Shown piece by piece: positions 2,994 through 35,117 of a stretch of 35,117 nucleotides of DNA. Each line of letters starts with the position of its first letter. Within the stretch, counting starts at the first letter, position 1. Below the pieces are notes generated by a model. It was not told the DNA's origin, ran no database searches, and worked only from the letters and a program-made list of their open reading frames with translations. This stretch comes from Nitrospiraceae bacterium. Its GTDB lineage: Bacteria > Nitrospirota > Nitrospiria > Nitrospirales > Nitrospiraceae. The stretch lies in contig JABFSG010000095.1 of NCBI GenBank assembly GCA_013140715.1, forward strand, positions 1 to 35,117, written 5' to 3'. The translations under genes were made by a program, and so were the position numbers.

Positions 2994-3043
2994 GGCTGCT
3001 GAAAGCGCAGCGAGAACCATGCTGGCGGGCTCTTTCAGCACCC
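2994..3043 (-). repeat. Mini copy (F) of the GGATGCTGAAAAAG palindromic element
   Basis: About 50 bases bounded by inverted ends. On the minus strand it begins GGGTGCTGAAAGAGCCCGCC, matches the first 35 bases of the longer copies (through GGTTCTCGC), then jumps to the closing arm CTTTCAGCAGCC. It starts 2 bases after the TAG stop of the gene ending at 3046 and runs in the same direction. Confidence 0.65.
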
Positions 3044-3045
3044 TG

Positions 3046-3441
3046 CTAAGGCAAGACATTCTTTCTAATCGATCCTGGGTCCTCAGTATTACTCCATTCC
3101 TTTCCGTTCACTTCTGCCCATATTTCACGCACGATTCGTTGCTCGAAACCAAACCATGTCGGCTTGTCGCGTAACTCCTTAAGGTATTTGATGTCGGCAT
3201 CGGTCAGAGACTTCGGTCGTGGTTTAGTCGTGAGGACTTCACTGATCGCATCACGTTCTCTTAAAGAGGGTCGCACAACCGGCACACCTGGAAGTGACTG
3301 CCCCTGGCGTGCGCCTTGATTCATCTGTGTCAACTGCGTCTGAATGTATACAACCTCTTCAGCGCTCGACACTGCGATTACCGGTAGCACAGCAACCGTT
3401 GTGACCACGAAAAGGAGCCCCAAAACTTTAGACAAATTCAT
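3046..3441 (-). CDS. Small secreted protein of unknown function
   Basis: 131 residues. A clear signal peptide occupies residues 1-27 (MNLSKVLGLLFVVTTVAVLP then AVSSAEE), so the product is exported. The mature part is hydrophilic, with a Pro/Arg-rich middle and a lysine- and tryptophan-containing C-terminal half (DIKYLKELRDKPTWFGFEQR). No family was recognised. The ribosome-binding site is weak (GGCAGGG upstream of the ATG at 3441). The gene stands alone between the tRNA and the receiver-protein gene, and a mini palindromic repeat follows its stop directly. Confidence 0.75.
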   Translation of the reverse strand: MNLSKVLGLLFVVTTVAVLPVIAVSSAEEVVYIQTQLTQMNQGARQGQSLPGVPVVRPSLRERDAISEVLTTKPRPKSLTDADIKYLKELRDKPTWFGFEQRIVREIWAEVNGKEWSNTEDPGSIRKNVLP

Positions 3442-9443: not shown

Positions 9444-10010
9444 CGCTTCTGGGTCAGACCATCGAGATATACCGGGTAGGGTCACAACAGGATTCGAGGA
9501 TAACCTTCGAGGTAGATGGGCTATCGCGCAGTTTCAAGTCGGGCGAATCAAACCTTCCTTATCTGTATCGATCATGGGTTGACGGGAACAAGTACTTTCT
9601 TCTATAAATGGCCCCCAACATGCTGGTGAAAAAGTCTGTCGGTTGCTTTCTCAAAACCTGTGAAGCGCAGCTTACGAGAATTCTCCCTCTGAGTCTGCCA
9701 GGGAAAGTGAACGAAGAAGACAGCCTTTTTGAACAGCCTGTAAACCTGTACCCCTGTTGAGCCTGGCATGCGGACTACCGGCGTTTCACGTTTCGAGTCG
9801 GTTTTTCAGCTGCCAATTAGGGTACCAGCCAATATTGACAGTTCATTGTCGTACAGTTTTTTAGCGATCCCACTCCTTCCCTTCATCCCAAGGTAGGGGG
9901 ATAGGGCTACGCTCTCGGTATTGTTGAACGACCGGTTGGGCCGTACTGTGATGGAACACAGGCCAGTATCCTGTGTGACAGTCGGCTTAACCAGGAACAA
10001 GAGGTGTTTG
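9444..10010. other. Long intergenic region without a supported gene
   Basis: 567 bases with no convincing coding frame. It contains a degenerate copy of the dispersed palindromic element (9619-9740) and a short hairpin ACACAGG/CCTGTGT (9956-9976) that falls in the leader of the RlpA-like gene. A TTGACA at 9835-9840 could be a -35 box, but the matching -10 (TTTTTA) is poor. Confidence 0.5.
9619..9740 (+). repeat. Degenerate copy (E) of the GGATGCTGAAAAAG palindromic element
   Basis: The left end CATGCTGGTGAAAAAGTCTG and the right end GCCTTTTTGAACAGCCTG correspond to the ends of the better copies, at the expected spacing of about 120 bases. The internal hairpin is not recognisable. It lies 176 bases after the nearest stop codon, unlike most other copies. 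Confidence 0.4.
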
Positions 10011-14910: not shown

Positions 14911-16329
14911 ATGTTCAAGAAAATTCTCGTTGCCAATCGCGGCGAAATCGCCATGCGGATTATCCGCGCTTGCCGCGAATTGAACATCGCCACTGCAGCC
15001 ATCTACTCCGAAGCAGACTCGACCGGGATCTATGTCAAGAAGGCCGACGAGGCCTATATGGTCGGCCCAGGACCAGTCAAAGGTTTTCTGGACAGCCAAC
15101 AAATCGTCAGTCTGGCAAAACGTATCGGCGCCGATGCCATTCACCCAGGCTATGGATTTCTTTCAGAAAATTCGCAATTTGCACAACTCTGCCATACCTC
15201 CGGCATTACCTTCATCGGTCCCTCACCAGAAGCCATCGACTTGATGGGAAGCAAGATCAAAGCCCGCGAGCTGGCCAAGCGGGTTGGGGTACCGATAGTC
15301 CCTGGAACCGATGGTGGAGTCACAGACGTCAAGGAAGCCCTGTCGTTCGCACAAGACACAGGCTACCCCGTCATTATTAAGGCGAGCGCAGGTGGGGGAG
15401 GACGCGGTCTCCGGGTGGTGCGATCGGATACCGAGCTGCGTGAGAATATGGCAGTTGCGTCACGAGAGGCCCAGTCTGCCTTCGGAAATGGAGTGGTCTT
15501 CCTTGAGAAGTATATCGAGCGACCGCATCACATCGAATTCCAGATTCTGGCCGATCGACACGGCAACATCATCCACTTAGGCGAACGCGATTGCTCGATT
15601 CAACGCCGACACCAAAAACTCATCGAGATCGCTCCATCCTTGATTCTTACGCCACAGCTTCGCGCCGAAATGGGCGAGGCAGCCATCACCATCGCCAAGG
15701 CGATCGATTATGACAATGCCGGCACCGTCGAGTTCCTCCTCGATCAGGATAGCCGGTATTACTTCATGGAAATGAACCCGCGTCTCCAAGTCGAACATAC
15801 AGTGACCGAGCAGATTACGGCGATCGACATCGTGCGCAATCAGATCGCCATTGCAGCCGGCATGCCTCTTGAGGTCACGCAAGAGGAAGTCACGCTCCAA
15901 GGCCATGCCATCCAATGCCGCATCAACGCAGAAGACCCGAAGAACAACTTCCGGCCCTGCACCGGCACCATCACTGCCTATCTCTCGCCGGGTGGAATCG
16001 GGGTCCGTATCGACGGAGCCGTTTACAAAGACTACACGGTACCACCCTACTATGACGCCCTCCTGGCCAAGCTCACCGTGCGTGGCCGTACGTGGGAAGA
16101 AACCGTCAGCCGCATGAGACGATCGCTTGAAGAGTACGTCTTGCGCGGAGTGAAGACGACGATCCCTTTTATGATGGAGATTATGCAGGATCGGGACTTT
16201 CTGGCAGGGCATTTCGATACGTCCTACCTAGAAACCCATCCTGACCTGTTCAACTATCATGATTTCGAGCAGCCGGAGGATCTGGTGCTGGCACTCTCTG
16301 CCGCCATTGCCGCCTACGAAGGGTTGTAG
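14911..16329 (+). CDS. pycA: Biotin carboxylase subunit (pyruvate carboxylase subunit A / AccC-like)
   Basis: 472 residues. It carries the full biotin carboxylase architecture: MFKKILVANRGEIAMRIIRA, HPGYGFLSEN, the glycine-rich ATP loop KASAGGGGRGLRVV, QRRHQK, EMNPRLQVEHTVTE and a C-terminal domain with INAEDP. It uses ATP and bicarbonate to carboxylate biotin. The carboxyltransferase/biotin-carrier gene follows at 16536, so the pair most likely forms a two-subunit pyruvate carboxylase making oxaloacetate, rather than acetyl-CoA carboxylase; propionyl-CoA or 2-oxoglutarate carboxylase are alternatives. A palindromic element begins 2 nt after its stop. The ribosome-binding site is weak. Confidence 0.93.
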   Translation: MFKKILVANRGEIAMRIIRACRELNIATAAIYSEADSTGIYVKKADEAYMVGPGPVKGFLDSQQIVSLAKRIGADAIHPGYGFLSENSQFAQLCHTSGITFIGPSPEAIDLMGSKIKARELAKRVGVPIVPGTDGGVTDVKEALSFAQDTGYPVIIKASAGGGGRGLRVVRSDTELRENMAVASREAQSAFGNGVVFLEKYIERPHHIEFQILADRHGNIIHLGERDCSIQRRHQKLIEIAPSLILTPQLRAEMGEAAITIAKAIDYDNAGTVEFLLDQDSRYYFMEMNPRLQVEHTVTEQITAIDIVRNQIAIAAGMPLEVTQEEVTLQGHAIQCRINAEDPKNNFRPCTGTITAYLSPGGIGVRIDGAVYKDYTVPPYYDALLAKLTVRGRTWEETVSRMRRSLEEYVLRGVKTTIPFMMEIMQDRDFLAGHFDTSYLETHPDLFNYHDFEQPEDLVLALSAAIAAYEGL

Positions 16330-16331
16330 CA

Positions 16332-16494
16332 GGATGCTGAAAAAGTCCGCCAGCAGCGTTCTCGCATTGCTCAGAGGCTCAACGTACCGAAGCGTACGCC
16401 TCGCCTCTTCGCTCGCTGCGGCCTTGTTTGGGACAAGGCGCGCCTCGGCGCGCCAGGGTTGGGCGGGTGAGAAAGTTGGCCTTTTTGAGCATCC
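16332..16494 (+). repeat. Palindromic element, copy A, inside the carboxylase operon
   Basis: 163 bases with terminal inverted repeats GGATGCTGAAAAAG and CTTTTTGAGCATCC (one mismatch). An internal hairpin CGTAC/GTACG lies at 16383-16398. This copy has an additional GC-rich inverted section (GGCGCGCC near 16438) absent from copy B. It begins 2 nt after the stop of the biotin carboxylase gene and ends 41 nt before the start of the next subunit gene. Confidence 0.85.
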
Positions 16495-20326: not shown

Positions 20327-20406
20327 AAGGCTGAGGTCCAGGTTGAGGCTGAGGAGAGGGAAATGCACACTTCTCCCTAACCTTAGCCTTAACCTCAGCC
20401 TTCCTT
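20327..20406. terminator. Long purine/pyrimidine hairpin after the thiol peroxidase gene
   Basis: The left arm AAGGCTGAGGTCCAGGTTGA (from 20327) and the right arm ending TTAACCTCAGCCTTCCTT (20389-20406) pair over some 30 bases with small bulges. It starts 10 bases after the stop codon and ends 12 bases before the transhydrogenase ATG, so it probably ends the upstream transcript. Confidence 0.6.
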
Positions 20407-28136: not shown

Positions 28137-29114
28137 ATGAATCGTCTCTTGGTCATGGTCCTCCTTGCCATCGCTGTTCTCTGGGCAATTCCGTCTTATG
28201 CGGCGTCGCAATATGAGGAGAGCTTGAAGCAGTTGGCGGAGGGAGTGATCGCCGACGCGGTCAAGGCTGGGAGGGGACGGCTGGCGATGGTGGACTTTAC
28301 AGATGCCAAGGGCAATGTGACACCGATAGGGACATTTTTGGCGGAAGAGTTAGGCACCCAGATTCTGGTCGCAGGTGACATCAAAGTCGTCGACCGCACC
28401 ATGGTGGGCTCGACGTTGAAGAAGTTCCATGTCACGCAACTCGAACCGGCTCAGGCTAAAGGAGTCGGCCAGGCAGCCAAGGCTGTGCGGGCCGATGTAT
28501 TTGCGACTGGTTCATATCTGGAATCGCCGGACGGCTTTCGGGTGACGGTGAAACTATTCAGCCCCAGCACTGTGCAGTCCCTGGGCGCGACACGCGGCAC
28601 GATTCCTACAACCGGCCCGCTGGCGGAACTGATCAAGGAGACAAACAAGCCGCCTGTCGTGAAGGTGGATCTCACCGCCAAGCCTGCGCCACCGCCCGGT
28701 CTTGGCTTCTACAGTAACGATCATTATCAGCTGGTCGTGACCGCCCTGCACAAGCGGGACAAACAGGTCACGGCCGATATCACGATCGAGAATAAGTCCT
28801 CGCGCAATGTCAAAATGCTCTGCCTACTGCACGACACTCTGCTCGAAGATGAGCATGGTGGGCAGTGGAAGCTGGAGGTGGAGGACAACCGAGAAGGCCT
28901 CTGCATGCGCGGCATCGAGATCTCTCGACGGGGAAAGGGCCGGGCCGTGCTGACGTTCTCAGCGCCGGCCGACACGACCGGAAGCCAATTTACCTTTCGT
29001 TACCACGAGAAATTGCCAAGGCCCGATGCTCTCTTTTCAATCGAAGGACTCAAGACTGAATCGGCTGGAGCAGCTCCAGCGGCAGTCGACGTAATACCAC
29101 CACCATCCAATTGA
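28137..29114 (+). CDS. Exported FlgO/CsgG-like protein
   Basis: 325 residues with a signal peptide (residues 1-23, ending IPSYAAS). Residues 25-150 match the FlgO/TolB-N-like fold: YEESLKQLAEGVIADAVKAG, RLAMVDFTDAKGNVTPIGTF, LAEELGTQILVAGDIKVVDR. In Vibrio FlgO is an outer-membrane flagellar protein, but the fold is common in non-flagellar envelope proteins. The C-terminal 150 residues are beta-rich and end in a Pro/Ala tail. ATG 28137 is preferred over an upstream frame start because the signal peptide begins there. A good promoter lies upstream and thiD follows 11 nt after the stop. Confidence 0.82.
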   Translation: MNRLLVMVLLAIAVLWAIPSYAASQYEESLKQLAEGVIADAVKAGRGRLAMVDFTDAKGNVTPIGTFLAEELGTQILVAGDIKVVDRTMVGSTLKKFHVTQLEPAQAKGVGQAAKAVRADVFATGSYLESPDGFRVTVKLFSPSTVQSLGATRGTIPTTGPLAELIKETNKPPVVKVDLTAKPAPPPGLGFYSNDHYQLVVTALHKRDKQVTADITIENKSSRNVKMLCLLHDTLLEDEHGGQWKLEVEDNREGLCMRGIEISRRGKGRAVLTFSAPADTTGSQFTFRYHEKLPRPDALFSIEGLKTESAGAAPAAVDVIPPPSN

Positions 29115-29125
29115 TCGACAGGCAC

Positions 29126-29923
29126 ATGGACAGACAAACAATCAAACAAGTTTTAACGATTGCCGGATCAGACTCCGGCGGAGGAGCGGGAATTCAAGCC
29201 GACATCAAGGCCATGTCGGCCAATGGCGTGTATGCCATGTCGGTGATTACTGCCGTGACAGCGCAGAATACGGAAGAAGTCACCGACGTCTTCGAGTTGC
29301 CGACCTCGATCGTCGCAGCACAGATCGACGCCGTATTCGACGATTTCGACGTCGCAGCGGTCAAGACCGGGATGCTGTCCTCGGCAGCGATCGTCGAGGT
29401 CGTCGCCAGATTGTTGAAGCCTCAACGTGTCATGAATCTCGTGGTGGATCCGGTCATGATCTCGAAGACCGGCCATGTACTGCTTAAGCCGGATGCGATC
29501 GATGCCATCAAGACACAGCTCTTCCCTTTGGCCCTGCTCGTCACACCGAATATCCACGAAGCCCAACAACTATCCGGCCTTGAAATCAAGACCCTCGCTG
29601 ATGCACGCCGCGCCGCCAAGATCATTCATGGATTCGGCTGCAAGCATGTCTTGATCAAGGGAGGACATTTACCGACAGATCGAGCGACCGATCTGCTCTA
29701 CGACGGCCGATTCTTCAATGTATTCAAGGGAGAATTCATCGATACCCCCCACACTCATGGCACCGGCTGCACCTTCGCTTCGACTATCGCGGCCCATCTC
29801 GCGCTGGGCAAACCTATGAACGACGCAGTGCAGGCGGCCAAGTCCTATCTCACCGAAGCGATTCGTCACAGTCTGGCAATCGGTCACGGGACCGGGCCGA
29901 CGAATCATTTCTACTTTTTGTAA
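29126..29923 (+). CDS. thiD: Hydroxymethylpyrimidine/phosphomethylpyrimidine kinase
   Basis: 265 residues. Ribokinase-type motifs are LTIAGSDSGGGAGIQADIKA, VTAQNT, VVDPVMISKTGH, IKGGHL and HGTGCTFASTIAAHLALGK with the catalytic base Asp replaced as usual for ThiD by the GTGC loop cysteine. It phosphorylates HMP and HMP-phosphate for thiamine synthesis. ATG 29126 is preferred over TTG 29111. It lies 11 nt after the FlgO-like gene, and a palindromic element begins 8 nt after its stop. It acts downstream of TenA (21957). Confidence 0.93.
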   Translation: MDRQTIKQVLTIAGSDSGGGAGIQADIKAMSANGVYAMSVITAVTAQNTEEVTDVFELPTSIVAAQIDAVFDDFDVAAVKTGMLSSAAIVEVVARLLKPQRVMNLVVDPVMISKTGHVLLKPDAIDAIKTQLFPLALLVTPNIHEAQQLSGLEIKTLADARRAAKIIHGFGCKHVLIKGGHLPTDRATDLLYDGRFFNVFKGEFIDTPHTHGTGCTFASTIAAHLALGKPMNDAVQAAKSYLTEAIRHSLAIGHGTGPTNHFYFL

Positions 29924-29931
29924 GCTTCGCG

Positions 29932-30050
29932 GGATGCTGAAAAAGTCCGCCAGCGTCGTTCTCGCATCGCTCAGATCCTCAACGTACCCCAAGGGTACGC
30001 CTCGGACCTTCACTCGCTACGGCCTTGCTGGACAGTCTTTTTGAGCATCC
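29932..30050 (+). repeat. Palindromic element, copy B, after thiD
   Basis: 119 bases. Ends GGATGCTGAAAAAG and CTTTTTGAGCATCC (one mismatch as inverted repeats). The internal hairpin CGTACCC-CAA-GGGTACG is at 29983-29999. The order of blocks (GTCCGCCAGCGTCGTTCTCG, hairpin, CGGCCTTGCTGGACAG) is shared with copies A, C and D. It follows the thiD stop by 8 bases in the same orientation. Confidence 0.9.
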
Positions 30051-30082
30051 CACAAGAACATTCGCCCAGAATACCTCATGCG

Positions 30083-30128
30083 CAGATCTTCAAAATTCTC
30101 GCATGCAGAGATAGCTTTCAGTATTCTG
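30083..30128 (-). repeat. Possible mini copy (G) of the palindromic element
   Basis: On the minus strand CAGAATACTGAAAG ... GCGAGAATTTTGAAGATCTG resembles a 46-base collapsed copy like that at 2994-3043. It lies 17 bases before the ATG at 30145. Confidence 0.35.
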
Positions 30129-30144
30129 TCAGGAAGAGGACTCC

Positions 30145-31503
30145 ATGGGTCGATCTCCCTGCAGCCCCTTGACCTTTCTCATTACTGGATTTAGCTGGCT
30201 CCTACTATCCTCCCTGATGGGATTGGCCATCCTCGTCGGATCGGTCAATGGCACCCCGCTTCCTTCCTGGTTACGGTTGGTCCATGTCCACGGCCTTCTC
30301 ATCGGCGGCATCCTGCAACTCATGATCGGTGGGCTACTTGCCTCTGGATCGCTCAATGGCCAGAGCGACCGAACCCCCTCGAGCTCCCATCTATGGCTGT
30401 TCCTAGCACTGAATGCCGCGACAGCCGGATTGCTCGTCGGGCTCGGACTCGGAAACATGCCGATCGTCGGTGCGGCTGGGGCTGTCGTGATCGGGTCAGT
30501 CATCTCCATCGCGAACCGCGCCTGGCAGTACAAGCCGCAGAGTCTTCCTCAATCGGCCGACCCGTCCTGGTTGTACCGATTCTCTCTTATTGCGTTGCTC
30601 GTGGGCCTACTGGTTGGTGTCGCGATGGCCTTTCGACTGATGCCGGAATACTCTGCCCATGCGCGTCTTTTTCACCTGCATGCGATTCTGCTGGGTTTCA
30701 TCACGATGGCGATGATAGGCGCCACACACCACTTCTTGCCGATCATCCTGAACACTACGCTCTACAGCCAACGACTAGCCAAATTCGTCATGGGATTGCT
30801 CCCGACCGGTTTCATCGTCTTGATCGGCGGGTTTATCGCCTCGTCCCTCTATCTCGAACTTGCGATCGGAGGGCTACTCATCCTCGGCATCGTTCTTTAT
30901 GCCTATAACCTCTACCGTACCTGGGTGGCCTCAGGCCATCCTGGAAATGCCGCTTCCGACCACCTCTTAGTCGCAACATTTTTTCTGGTCCTTATGATGG
31001 TCATGGGTGTGCTCGTCGGAGCCAACTTTCTTCCACAACCTCCGGCGCTGCCGTTTGGAGCTTTACAGCTTGCAGCCTATACCCATATGGCCTTGATCGG
31101 GTTTATTCTACAGACTGTCTTTGGAGCTCTCTCCTATGGCATTCCTGAAATGTTGGTCACCAATCGCGTCTCGAGCAAGAAAAAGCAGGGACCCTATCGG
31201 GATCAACTGATAGCGATCATCGACCGGTGGCGGGCCATTCAACTGATTGGATTGAGCCTAGGAACGATGGGGTTCGGCCTACTCGCTGTCATGACCTGGA
31301 ACGTTCCACTCGGTTCTCTCTCTCTTCAGATCGCGACCTGGGTCACACTCGGCTTGCTCCTGAGTGGCTTGACTCTCTTTTCTGCAAAACTCGCCTGGGT
31401 TTTGGGGATTCGTCCGTTGAATAGTCTTGCCCCCTCTGTGGCACCAGAAGAAACGTTCCATCAACCTCTCAAGCGCGCGGTAGGCGAAACTCACCGGTTC
31501 TGA
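30145..31503 (+). CDS. 12-helix membrane protein with oxidase-like histidines (heme-copper oxidase subunit I-like or NnrS-like)
   Basis: 452 residues with twelve predicted membrane helices. Histidines sit inside or at helix ends: H47 and H49 (RLVHVHGLLIGG), H177 and H179 (LFHLHAILLGF), H195 and H196 (GATHHFLPI), H314 (AAYTHMALIGF). HxHxxLLGF-type motifs recall cbb3/NO-reductase-like subunit I and NnrS proteins, but the canonical order of six ligands (single, single, HH, HxH) is not reproduced, so haem or copper binding is only a possibility. AGGAAGAGG precedes ATG 30145. No oxidase subunit II or cytochrome gene is adjacent. Confidence 0.7.
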   Translation: MGRSPCSPLTFLITGFSWLLLSSLMGLAILVGSVNGTPLPSWLRLVHVHGLLIGGILQLMIGGLLASGSLNGQSDRTPSSSHLWLFLALNAATAGLLVGLGLGNMPIVGAAGAVVIGSVISIANRAWQYKPQSLPQSADPSWLYRFSLIALLVGLLVGVAMAFRLMPEYSAHARLFHLHAILLGFITMAMIGATHHFLPIILNTTLYSQRLAKFVMGLLPTGFIVLIGGFIASSLYLELAIGGLLILGIVLYAYNLYRTWVASGHPGNAASDHLLVATFFLVLMMVMGVLVGANFLPQPPALPFGALQLAAYTHMALIGFILQTVFGALSYGIPEMLVTNRVSSKKKQGPYRDQLIAIIDRWRAIQLIGLSLGTMGFGLLAVMTWNVPLGSLSLQIATWVTLGLLLSGLTLFSAKLAWVLGIRPLNSLAPSVAPEETFHQPLKRAVGETHRF

Positions 31504-34711: not shown

Positions 34712-34833
34712 GGATGCTCAAAACGGTCATCCAGCGAGGCCACAGGAGAGAAATAACCGGAGGCGTAGCCTCTCGGCTACGTTGAGGATTCTGACGAGAC
34801 GAGAACGAAGCTGGGGATCGTTTTCAGCAGCCG
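34712..34833 (-). repeat. Palindromic element, copy C
   Basis: About 122 bases. In the minus orientation it begins GGCTGCTGAAAACG and ends GTTTTGAGCATCC. The internal hairpin is CGTAGCC-TCTC-GGCTACG (34764-34781), where a C-G pair of copies B and D is replaced by G-C. It lies head-to-tail with copy D, 9 bases apart. Confidence 0.85.
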
Positions 34834-34842
34834 CTCCCGACA

Positions 34843-34964
34843 AGATGCTCAAATAGACGATCCAACAAGGCCGCAGGGAGTCTGGCGACTGAGGCGTACC
34901 CTCTGGGTACGTCGCAAGGAGACAGACGACCGAGAACGATGTTGGGTGTCTATTTCAGCATCCT
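34843..34964 (-). repeat. Palindromic element, copy D, after the FGE-like gene
   Basis: About 122 bases. In the minus orientation it begins AGGATGCTGAAATAG and ends CTATTTGAGCATCT: the ends changed together, keeping the terminal pairing. The internal hairpin CGTACCC-TCT-GGGTACG is at 34895-34911. It begins directly after the stop codon of the minus-strand gene ending at 34966. Confidence 0.88.
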
Positions 34965-34965
34965 G

Positions 34966-35117
34966 TCAGGATTTGGCGCAGCGGAAACCGGTATAGCTAT
35001 TGCGAGTTTCCGGCGGCAACTTGAATCGCCCATAAGAGAGGAGATATTTCGGCAGATCGGACCAAGACCCGCCTCGGAGCGCTTTGAACTGTCCCAGTTC
35101 CGGCCCTTGCGGATTTC
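34966..35117 (-). CDS. Formylglycine-generating-enzyme-like (SUMF1) protein, C-terminal fragment
   Basis: The last 50 codons before the TGA at 34966-34968 read into the window from its right edge. They contain LRGGSWSDLPKY and end NSYTGFRCAKS, the standard C-terminal signature of SUMF1/EgtB-type domains (RGGSW ... R ... GFRCA). These enzymes oxidise cysteine or histidine derivatives, or are fused to kinases and other modules. The N-terminus and so the precise role lie outside the window. Palindromic copy D follows its stop. Confidence 0.9.
   Translation of the reverse strand, partial: NPQGPELGQFKALRGGSWSDLPKYLLSYGRFKLPPETRNSYTGFRCAKS

Follow-up and report, generated by a model that had tools for sequence, protein, structure and literature searches.

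A gene-less transposon family of Nitrospira that inserts at YTAR tetranucleotides and often abuts TAG and TAA stop codons

Why do dispersed palindromic repeats begin directly after the stop codons of genes? The question was raised by the window (the whole stretch of DNA analyzed, 35,117 nucleotides from a Nitrospiraceae bacterium), in which the initial annotation had noted seven related elements, four of them with the left end 2–8 bases after a stop codon and always reading in the direction of the gene. It had proposed either a mobile 3' UTR, terminator or RNA stabilizer, or an insertion which targets or creates the stop. The features of the window are listed in Table 1. The four copies are placed as described: at pycA (junction TAG followed by CAGGATGC, 16327-16331), at the gene at 3046 (TAG followed by CAGGGTGC, minus strand), at the gene at 34966 (TGA followed by CAGGATGC, minus strand), and at thiD, where the stop lies 8 nt before GGATGC. 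The stretch at 30083-30128 had been counted as a separate element, but it is part of the tail that belongs to the focal copy at thiD. An Rfam search of the window gave one tRNA match only, and no Rfam family matched the element. A minus-strand tRNA gene is located at 2825-2898, near the short copy at 2994-3045, and positions 34712-34965 contain two tandem tail-less palindromes in the same orientation, separated by 9–10 bp.

Table 1. Element copies and associated features in the window (CM, covariance model).
Feature	Position	Strand	Basis
Focal MITE copy, full mobile unit of 199 bp: left terminal repeat CGGGATGCTGAAAAAG, palindrome, tail, decayed right end ...CAGTATTCTG	29930..30128	+	Tail and right-end consensus; thiD loci of relatives with and without a copy
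Palindromic core of focal copy (element of the initial annotation)	29932..30050	+	CM match 1-118, E 1.4e-28
Tail of focal copy, including 30083-30128	30051..30128	+	Aligns with same-locus tails of relatives ending CAGCATTCTG before CTAG
Focal left target duplication, decayed: TTCG (CTAG in relatives)	29926..29929	+	Comparison with relatives
Focal right target duplication, decayed: TCAG (CTAG in relatives)	30129..30132	+	Comparison with relatives
pycA-pycB copy, directly after pycA stop TAG (16327-16329); longer palindrome, most of tail lost	16330..16494	+	CM match; unoccupied sites in relatives
Tail-less copy abutting TGA stop of gene 34966-35115 (minus strand)	34843..34965	-	CM match
Second tail-less copy, in tandem with the 34843..34965 copy	34712..34832	-	CM match
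Short copy with internal deletion, abutting TAG stop of gene 3046-3441 (minus strand)	2994..3045	-	Direct sequence reading; no CM match at E<=0.01
Divergent, decayed relative	9619..9740	+	Direct sequence reading; no CM match at E<=0.01
thiD, present TAA stop 29921-29923	29111..29923	+	TIGR00097, 354.6 bits (cut-off 204.95)

The repeats are copies of a gene-less, non-autonomous transposon (MITE) of approximately 200 bp, most full units being 190–209 bp long. The palindrome of 118–122 bp is the left part of this unit, so the element had initially been drawn too short: its right end lies ~78 bp past the palindrome. This extra inserted sequence became apparent when pycA loci with and without the element were compared among relatives, and a ~78 nt tail, which ends with GTTTTTCCGCAGCCTG and is followed by YTAR, is common to the copies. 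Terminal inverted repeats are CAGGATGCTGAAAAAG at the palindrome end and CAGGCTGCGGAAAAAC at the tail end (13 of 16 positions identical); a rarer sister type has the ends CAGGCTGTTGACAAA and CAGGGTGTTGAC. The unit is well within the length range of MITEs (<500 bp), and no gene was assigned to it. A right end could be recognized in 53 of 127 palindrome copies, and many had no recognizable tail. We assume that tail-less palindromes arose by decay, the alternative being a shorter mobile form.

A covariance model, which the initial annotation had suggested together with a scan of related genomes, was built from an alignment of 18 copies. Run against the genome (3.58 Mb), it detected at least 130 copies (E<=0.01; 150 of 2123 candidates were scored), and it had matches in 32 of 32 genomes of the genus. 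In a scan of the phylum, 80 of 245 genomes matched, mostly in the same family, with 10 congeneric genomes and 51 of the 52 further family members listed; outside the family, matches came next from the order to which it belongs, and a few genomes beyond that had low-copy matches. When named genomes were scanned for an exact pattern, the matches listed were Nitrospira, Nitrospiraceae and Nitrospirae/Nitrospirota records only. The family is common in Nitrospira, and its stop spacing recurs there. With genes predicted, approximately, by a simple dicodon-based caller over ~680 kb surrounding the copies, the stop was located exactly 2 nt before GGATGC, abutting CAGG, in 40 of the 85 copies in this genome that had an upstream gene on the same strand; among 65 further copies, drawn independently from other genomes of Nitrospira, the same spacing occurred in 25 of 41. 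Genome-wide, the non-random distance to stops noticed in the window is far beyond chance.

The direction of the elements was a different matter. Among 133 full-length copies, the stop lay exactly at the palindrome end in 39 and at the tail end in 22, so 22 of the 61 stop-abutting copies are inverted and the elements do not always read in the direction of the gene. A weak bias remains, both at stops (39:22, p = 0.04) and between tandem genes (50 copies with and 25 against the genes, p = 0.005). Starts of minus-strand genes also clustered near the palindrome end. We suspected a gene-calling artefact, but the genes proved to be real, and the cluster is explained by inverted insertion at the stops of closely spaced tandem genes.

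The identity of the stops was informative. The 61 abutting full-length copies adjoined TAG in 40 cases, TAA in 21 and TGA in none, compared with 121 of 322 neighboring genes (38%) ending with TGA (p = 8e-12); the target is therefore the tetranucleotide YTAR and not the stop codon as such. A search with the palindrome alone placed 2 of 40 stop-abutting copies at TGA, one of them in the window. YTAR was present on both sides of 56 of the 133 oriented full-length copies, and the pair was identical in 40 of the 56 (10,000 shuffles: mean 20.4, maximum 32), an excess that indicates a 4-bp target duplication. The first bases of the flanking tetranucleotides were C/C in 37 copies, T/T in 12 and discordant in 7; the last bases were G/G in 37, A/A in 10 and discordant in 9. 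An occupied pycA copy of a relative (L336) had suggested a duplication of 2 or 3 bp, which was rejected because both outer bases agree independently in this pooled table. An early test for duplication that used tails of this genome only was not significant. Among 73 copies away from stops, YTAR occurred on the left in 38 and on the right in 39, and 20 had identical duplications. Insertion occurs at YTAR, with CTAG preferred, and TAG and TAA stops lie within this motif. The same target, Py-T-A-Pu with CTAG most frequent, is known for E. coli IS5 (PMC5493358; PMC10359306). The proposal that insertion targets the stop was therefore close to the mark insofar as YTAR contains TAG and TAA, but the stop is neither recognized as such nor created.

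Flanking duplications bear on two other kinds of mobile elements. Single-strand insertion by a Y1 transposase yields no target duplication. An element of the REP/RAYT or IS200/IS605 type, inserted as a single strand beside a tetranucleotide, would fit a palindromic repeat which adjoins a tetranucleotide, and one Y1_Tnp gene is present in the genome; this origin is nevertheless extremely improbable, being contradicted by the copy of the tetranucleotide on the far side and by the absence of element ends of that type beside the Y1 gene. That gene (G000:C102:813-1160, L183), the sole Y1 (RAYT-like) transposase gene, has an RHS-like repeat protein as its neighbor, and no copy of the family lies in its vicinity. 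Integron cassettes, whose attC-like recombination site would follow the stop in a constant orientation, would likewise account for a palindrome immediately after stops; they have a practically negligible probability, as the elements are scattered next to ordinary housekeeping genes, in either orientation and with target duplications.

Could the element itself supply the stop, truncating genes by insertion into coding sequence so that they end at the TAG of its left flank? CTAG or CTAA directly precedes CAGG in most copies, and for some genes the reading frame runs into the element and stops at an internal TGA (5 copies of this genome, at -9). However, such truncation should use the two frames with stops at the left end about equally, and the observed numbers were 40 adjoining stops versus 5 inner TGAs. 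It is also contradicted at two loci, pycA and thiD, where unoccupied sites, at pycA in many relatives, end at the same native stop, and we regard it as very unlikely. At thiD, unoccupied sites in relatives read AATCCTAG then GAGACTGACG, with CCTAG. Occupied thiD loci of different relatives contain forward and inverted copies with differing internal sequences, suggesting that the same stop was struck repeatedly. The gene ends with TTG CAA GCC TAG before CGGGACGC in relatives (CGGGA after the junction), TTG TAA GCC TAG before TGGAATGC in the closest relative (TGGAA after the junction), and TTG TAA GCT TCG before CGGGATGC in the window. Judging from these sequences, the focal copy originally abutted an ancestral TAG; thiD gained its TAA two codons upstream, with decay of CTAG later, which explains the 8-nt offset of this copy.

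We searched for a source of the transposition activity with the PF01609 profile and then with the transposase on contig C6 of this genome as query. Intact insertion sequences were found in two relatives, at L410 (1,319 bp) and L418 (~1.32 kb), both having CAGGCTGCGGAAAAAC at both ends, identical in 16 of 16 positions to the tail end of the MITE. With the NCBIfam IS5 model (NF033581, cut-off 140), their transposases scored 280.6 and 267.4 bits, and in L410 the insertion sequence and a full MITE are ~110 bp apart. Flanks are CTAG/CTAG in L410 and CTAG/TTAG in L418. Homology between MITE and insertion sequence is confined to the end sequences, and between the palindrome end of the MITE and the IS end 3 of 16 positions are mismatched. 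For the sister type, a separate insertion sequence is intact in L405 (flanks CTAG/CTAG) and also present at the edge of C6; the C6 transposase scored 119.8 bits, below the IS5 cut-off of 140, and transposases of the two types are 37% identical. No intact autonomous copy with the MITE ends was found in this genome, in which the sole clear relative, on C6, has the sister-type end CAGGCTGTTGACAAAC. The IS1380 family (PF13701) was considered as well; it gave few matches, and the search yielded no autonomous element of that type.

The elements are thus very probably mobilized by a trans-acting DDE transposase of the IS5 family, with the peak at stops arising from target sequence plus purifying selection. 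The transposase would cut YTAR with a 4-nt stagger and join the MITE, and the tetranucleotide would be copied on both sides. If the YTAR is the stop of a gene (Y-TAR), an intact stop would be kept in either orientation of the element and the gene would be undamaged. Selection would purge insertions at YTAR inside genes and, probably in part, insertions upstream of genes. The peak would then require neither recognition of stops nor a 3' UTR function. Of the 182 YTAR sites within 60 nt downstream of stops, 90 (49%) are the stop itself, which received 61 of 96 elements (64%; odds ratio 1.8, p = 0.03). As the stop makes up about half of the YTAR sites near gene ends, the peak is nearly accounted for. 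The excess grows when every non-coding YTAR site is taken as reference, with 46% of copies observed at stops versus ~14% expected, suggesting that the target motif alone is insufficient; the rest of the excess probably reflects selection against insertion upstream of genes, together with genes missed by the caller.

The transcript of the element may have a role of its own. On either strand, the focal sequence (29924-30060) can form a long hairpin (plus, -51.5 kcal/mol, z -4.4; minus, -69.7 kcal/mol, z -6.7), and the minus strand had the more stable fold in 86 of 99 copies, with a mean difference of 6.9 kcal/mol compared to 3.0 in the shuffled control. Nine pairs of the hairpin changed on both sides, a number reached in 0 of 500 shuffles, and slid controls gave 0–3. 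This covariation, the stable fold on both strands and the orientation bias would be expected of a functional mobile 3' UTR, in which a hairpin with T-runs on both strands terminates transcription or protects mRNA and selection retains copies after stops. We consider this rather doubtful as the cause of the stop peak. Inverted copies are frequent at stops; full-length copies avoid genes ending with TGA, which a 3' UTR would serve equally; one copy separates pycA from pycB, and strong termination at that place would keep transcription from reaching pycB; and a palindrome may covary through conversion between its arms without function. In addition, a terminator consensus scan of 29900-30150, with loops limited to 3–8 nt, called no standard terminator in the focal copy, in whose fold the T-run pairs with an A-run. 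A mobile 3' UTR, terminator or RNA stabilizer is therefore not established as the function of the element, and a secondary role is compatible with the covariation and bias. Compensatory changes and the ~2:1 bias hint at selection on the transcript, and arm conversion and avoidance of polar effects could also produce both. It is possible, if unlikely, that Nitrospira partly recruited this stop-landing family as ready-made 3' UTR hairpins, through selection on the transcribed hairpin; such hairpins would then tune the stability of mRNAs, or polarity, in pycA-pycB and similar operons. The strong hairpin at 16330-16494 lies within this pair, which is expected to be co-transcribed.

We found no earlier description of the element in the open-access papers searched. 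It resembles insertion sequences of the IS5 family with a YTAR target (E. coli IS5; NF033581) in the 4-bp YTAR duplication, the preference for CTAG and the IS5-family DDE transposase of the matching autonomous copies, but it is a MITE without a transposase, and 3 of the 16 positions of its left end do not match the IS end. Among bacterial MITEs, stable hairpins are known from the QMITEs of Coxiella and pneumococcal RUP, BOX and SPRITE (reviewed in PMC10969869). Like these, the Nitrospira element is short, non-coding and intergenic, with terminal inverted repeats, a target duplication and a stable transcript fold; unlike them, it abuts TAG and TAA stops exactly, combines a long covarying palindrome with a separate tail, and is genus-wide, most genomes containing ~100 copies or more. 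Intergenic palindromes that often follow genes are also typical of REP/BIME elements, whereas the present element is longer, has a target duplication and has a DDE rather than a Y1 partner. A striking genome-wide pattern can be explained without new biology, as a YTAR-targeting transposon has safe sites at TAG and TAA stops. By the same logic, IS5-type elements of other bacteria are predicted to be concentrated at TAG and TAA, but not TGA, stops. The copies also provide a natural set of orthologs with and without a strong 3' hairpin, useful for studying expression effects in nitrifying bacteria.

Several additional features of the family and its surroundings were observed. A mismatch in the stem at position 8 (G versus G on the plus strand, C versus C on the minus strand) was conserved in every aligned copy, including 29932-30050. 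Seven loci (L002, L003, L006, L011, L014, L021 and L337) had a common 23-nt left end and very different interiors, among them polypurine/polypyrimidine hairpins (AAGGTTGAGG, TTTGGTTTATT); a free-standing hairpin resembling these interiors is present at 20327-20402 of the window. Another pair of elements was represented by an unrelated palindromic insert at a CTAG target in the pycA-pycB gap of relative G013 (L338, ends CCTGTCCGACATTG) and a transposase-bearing element with a CTAG duplication (L394, 1319-2917, ends GAGCCTGTCCGACATTGA).
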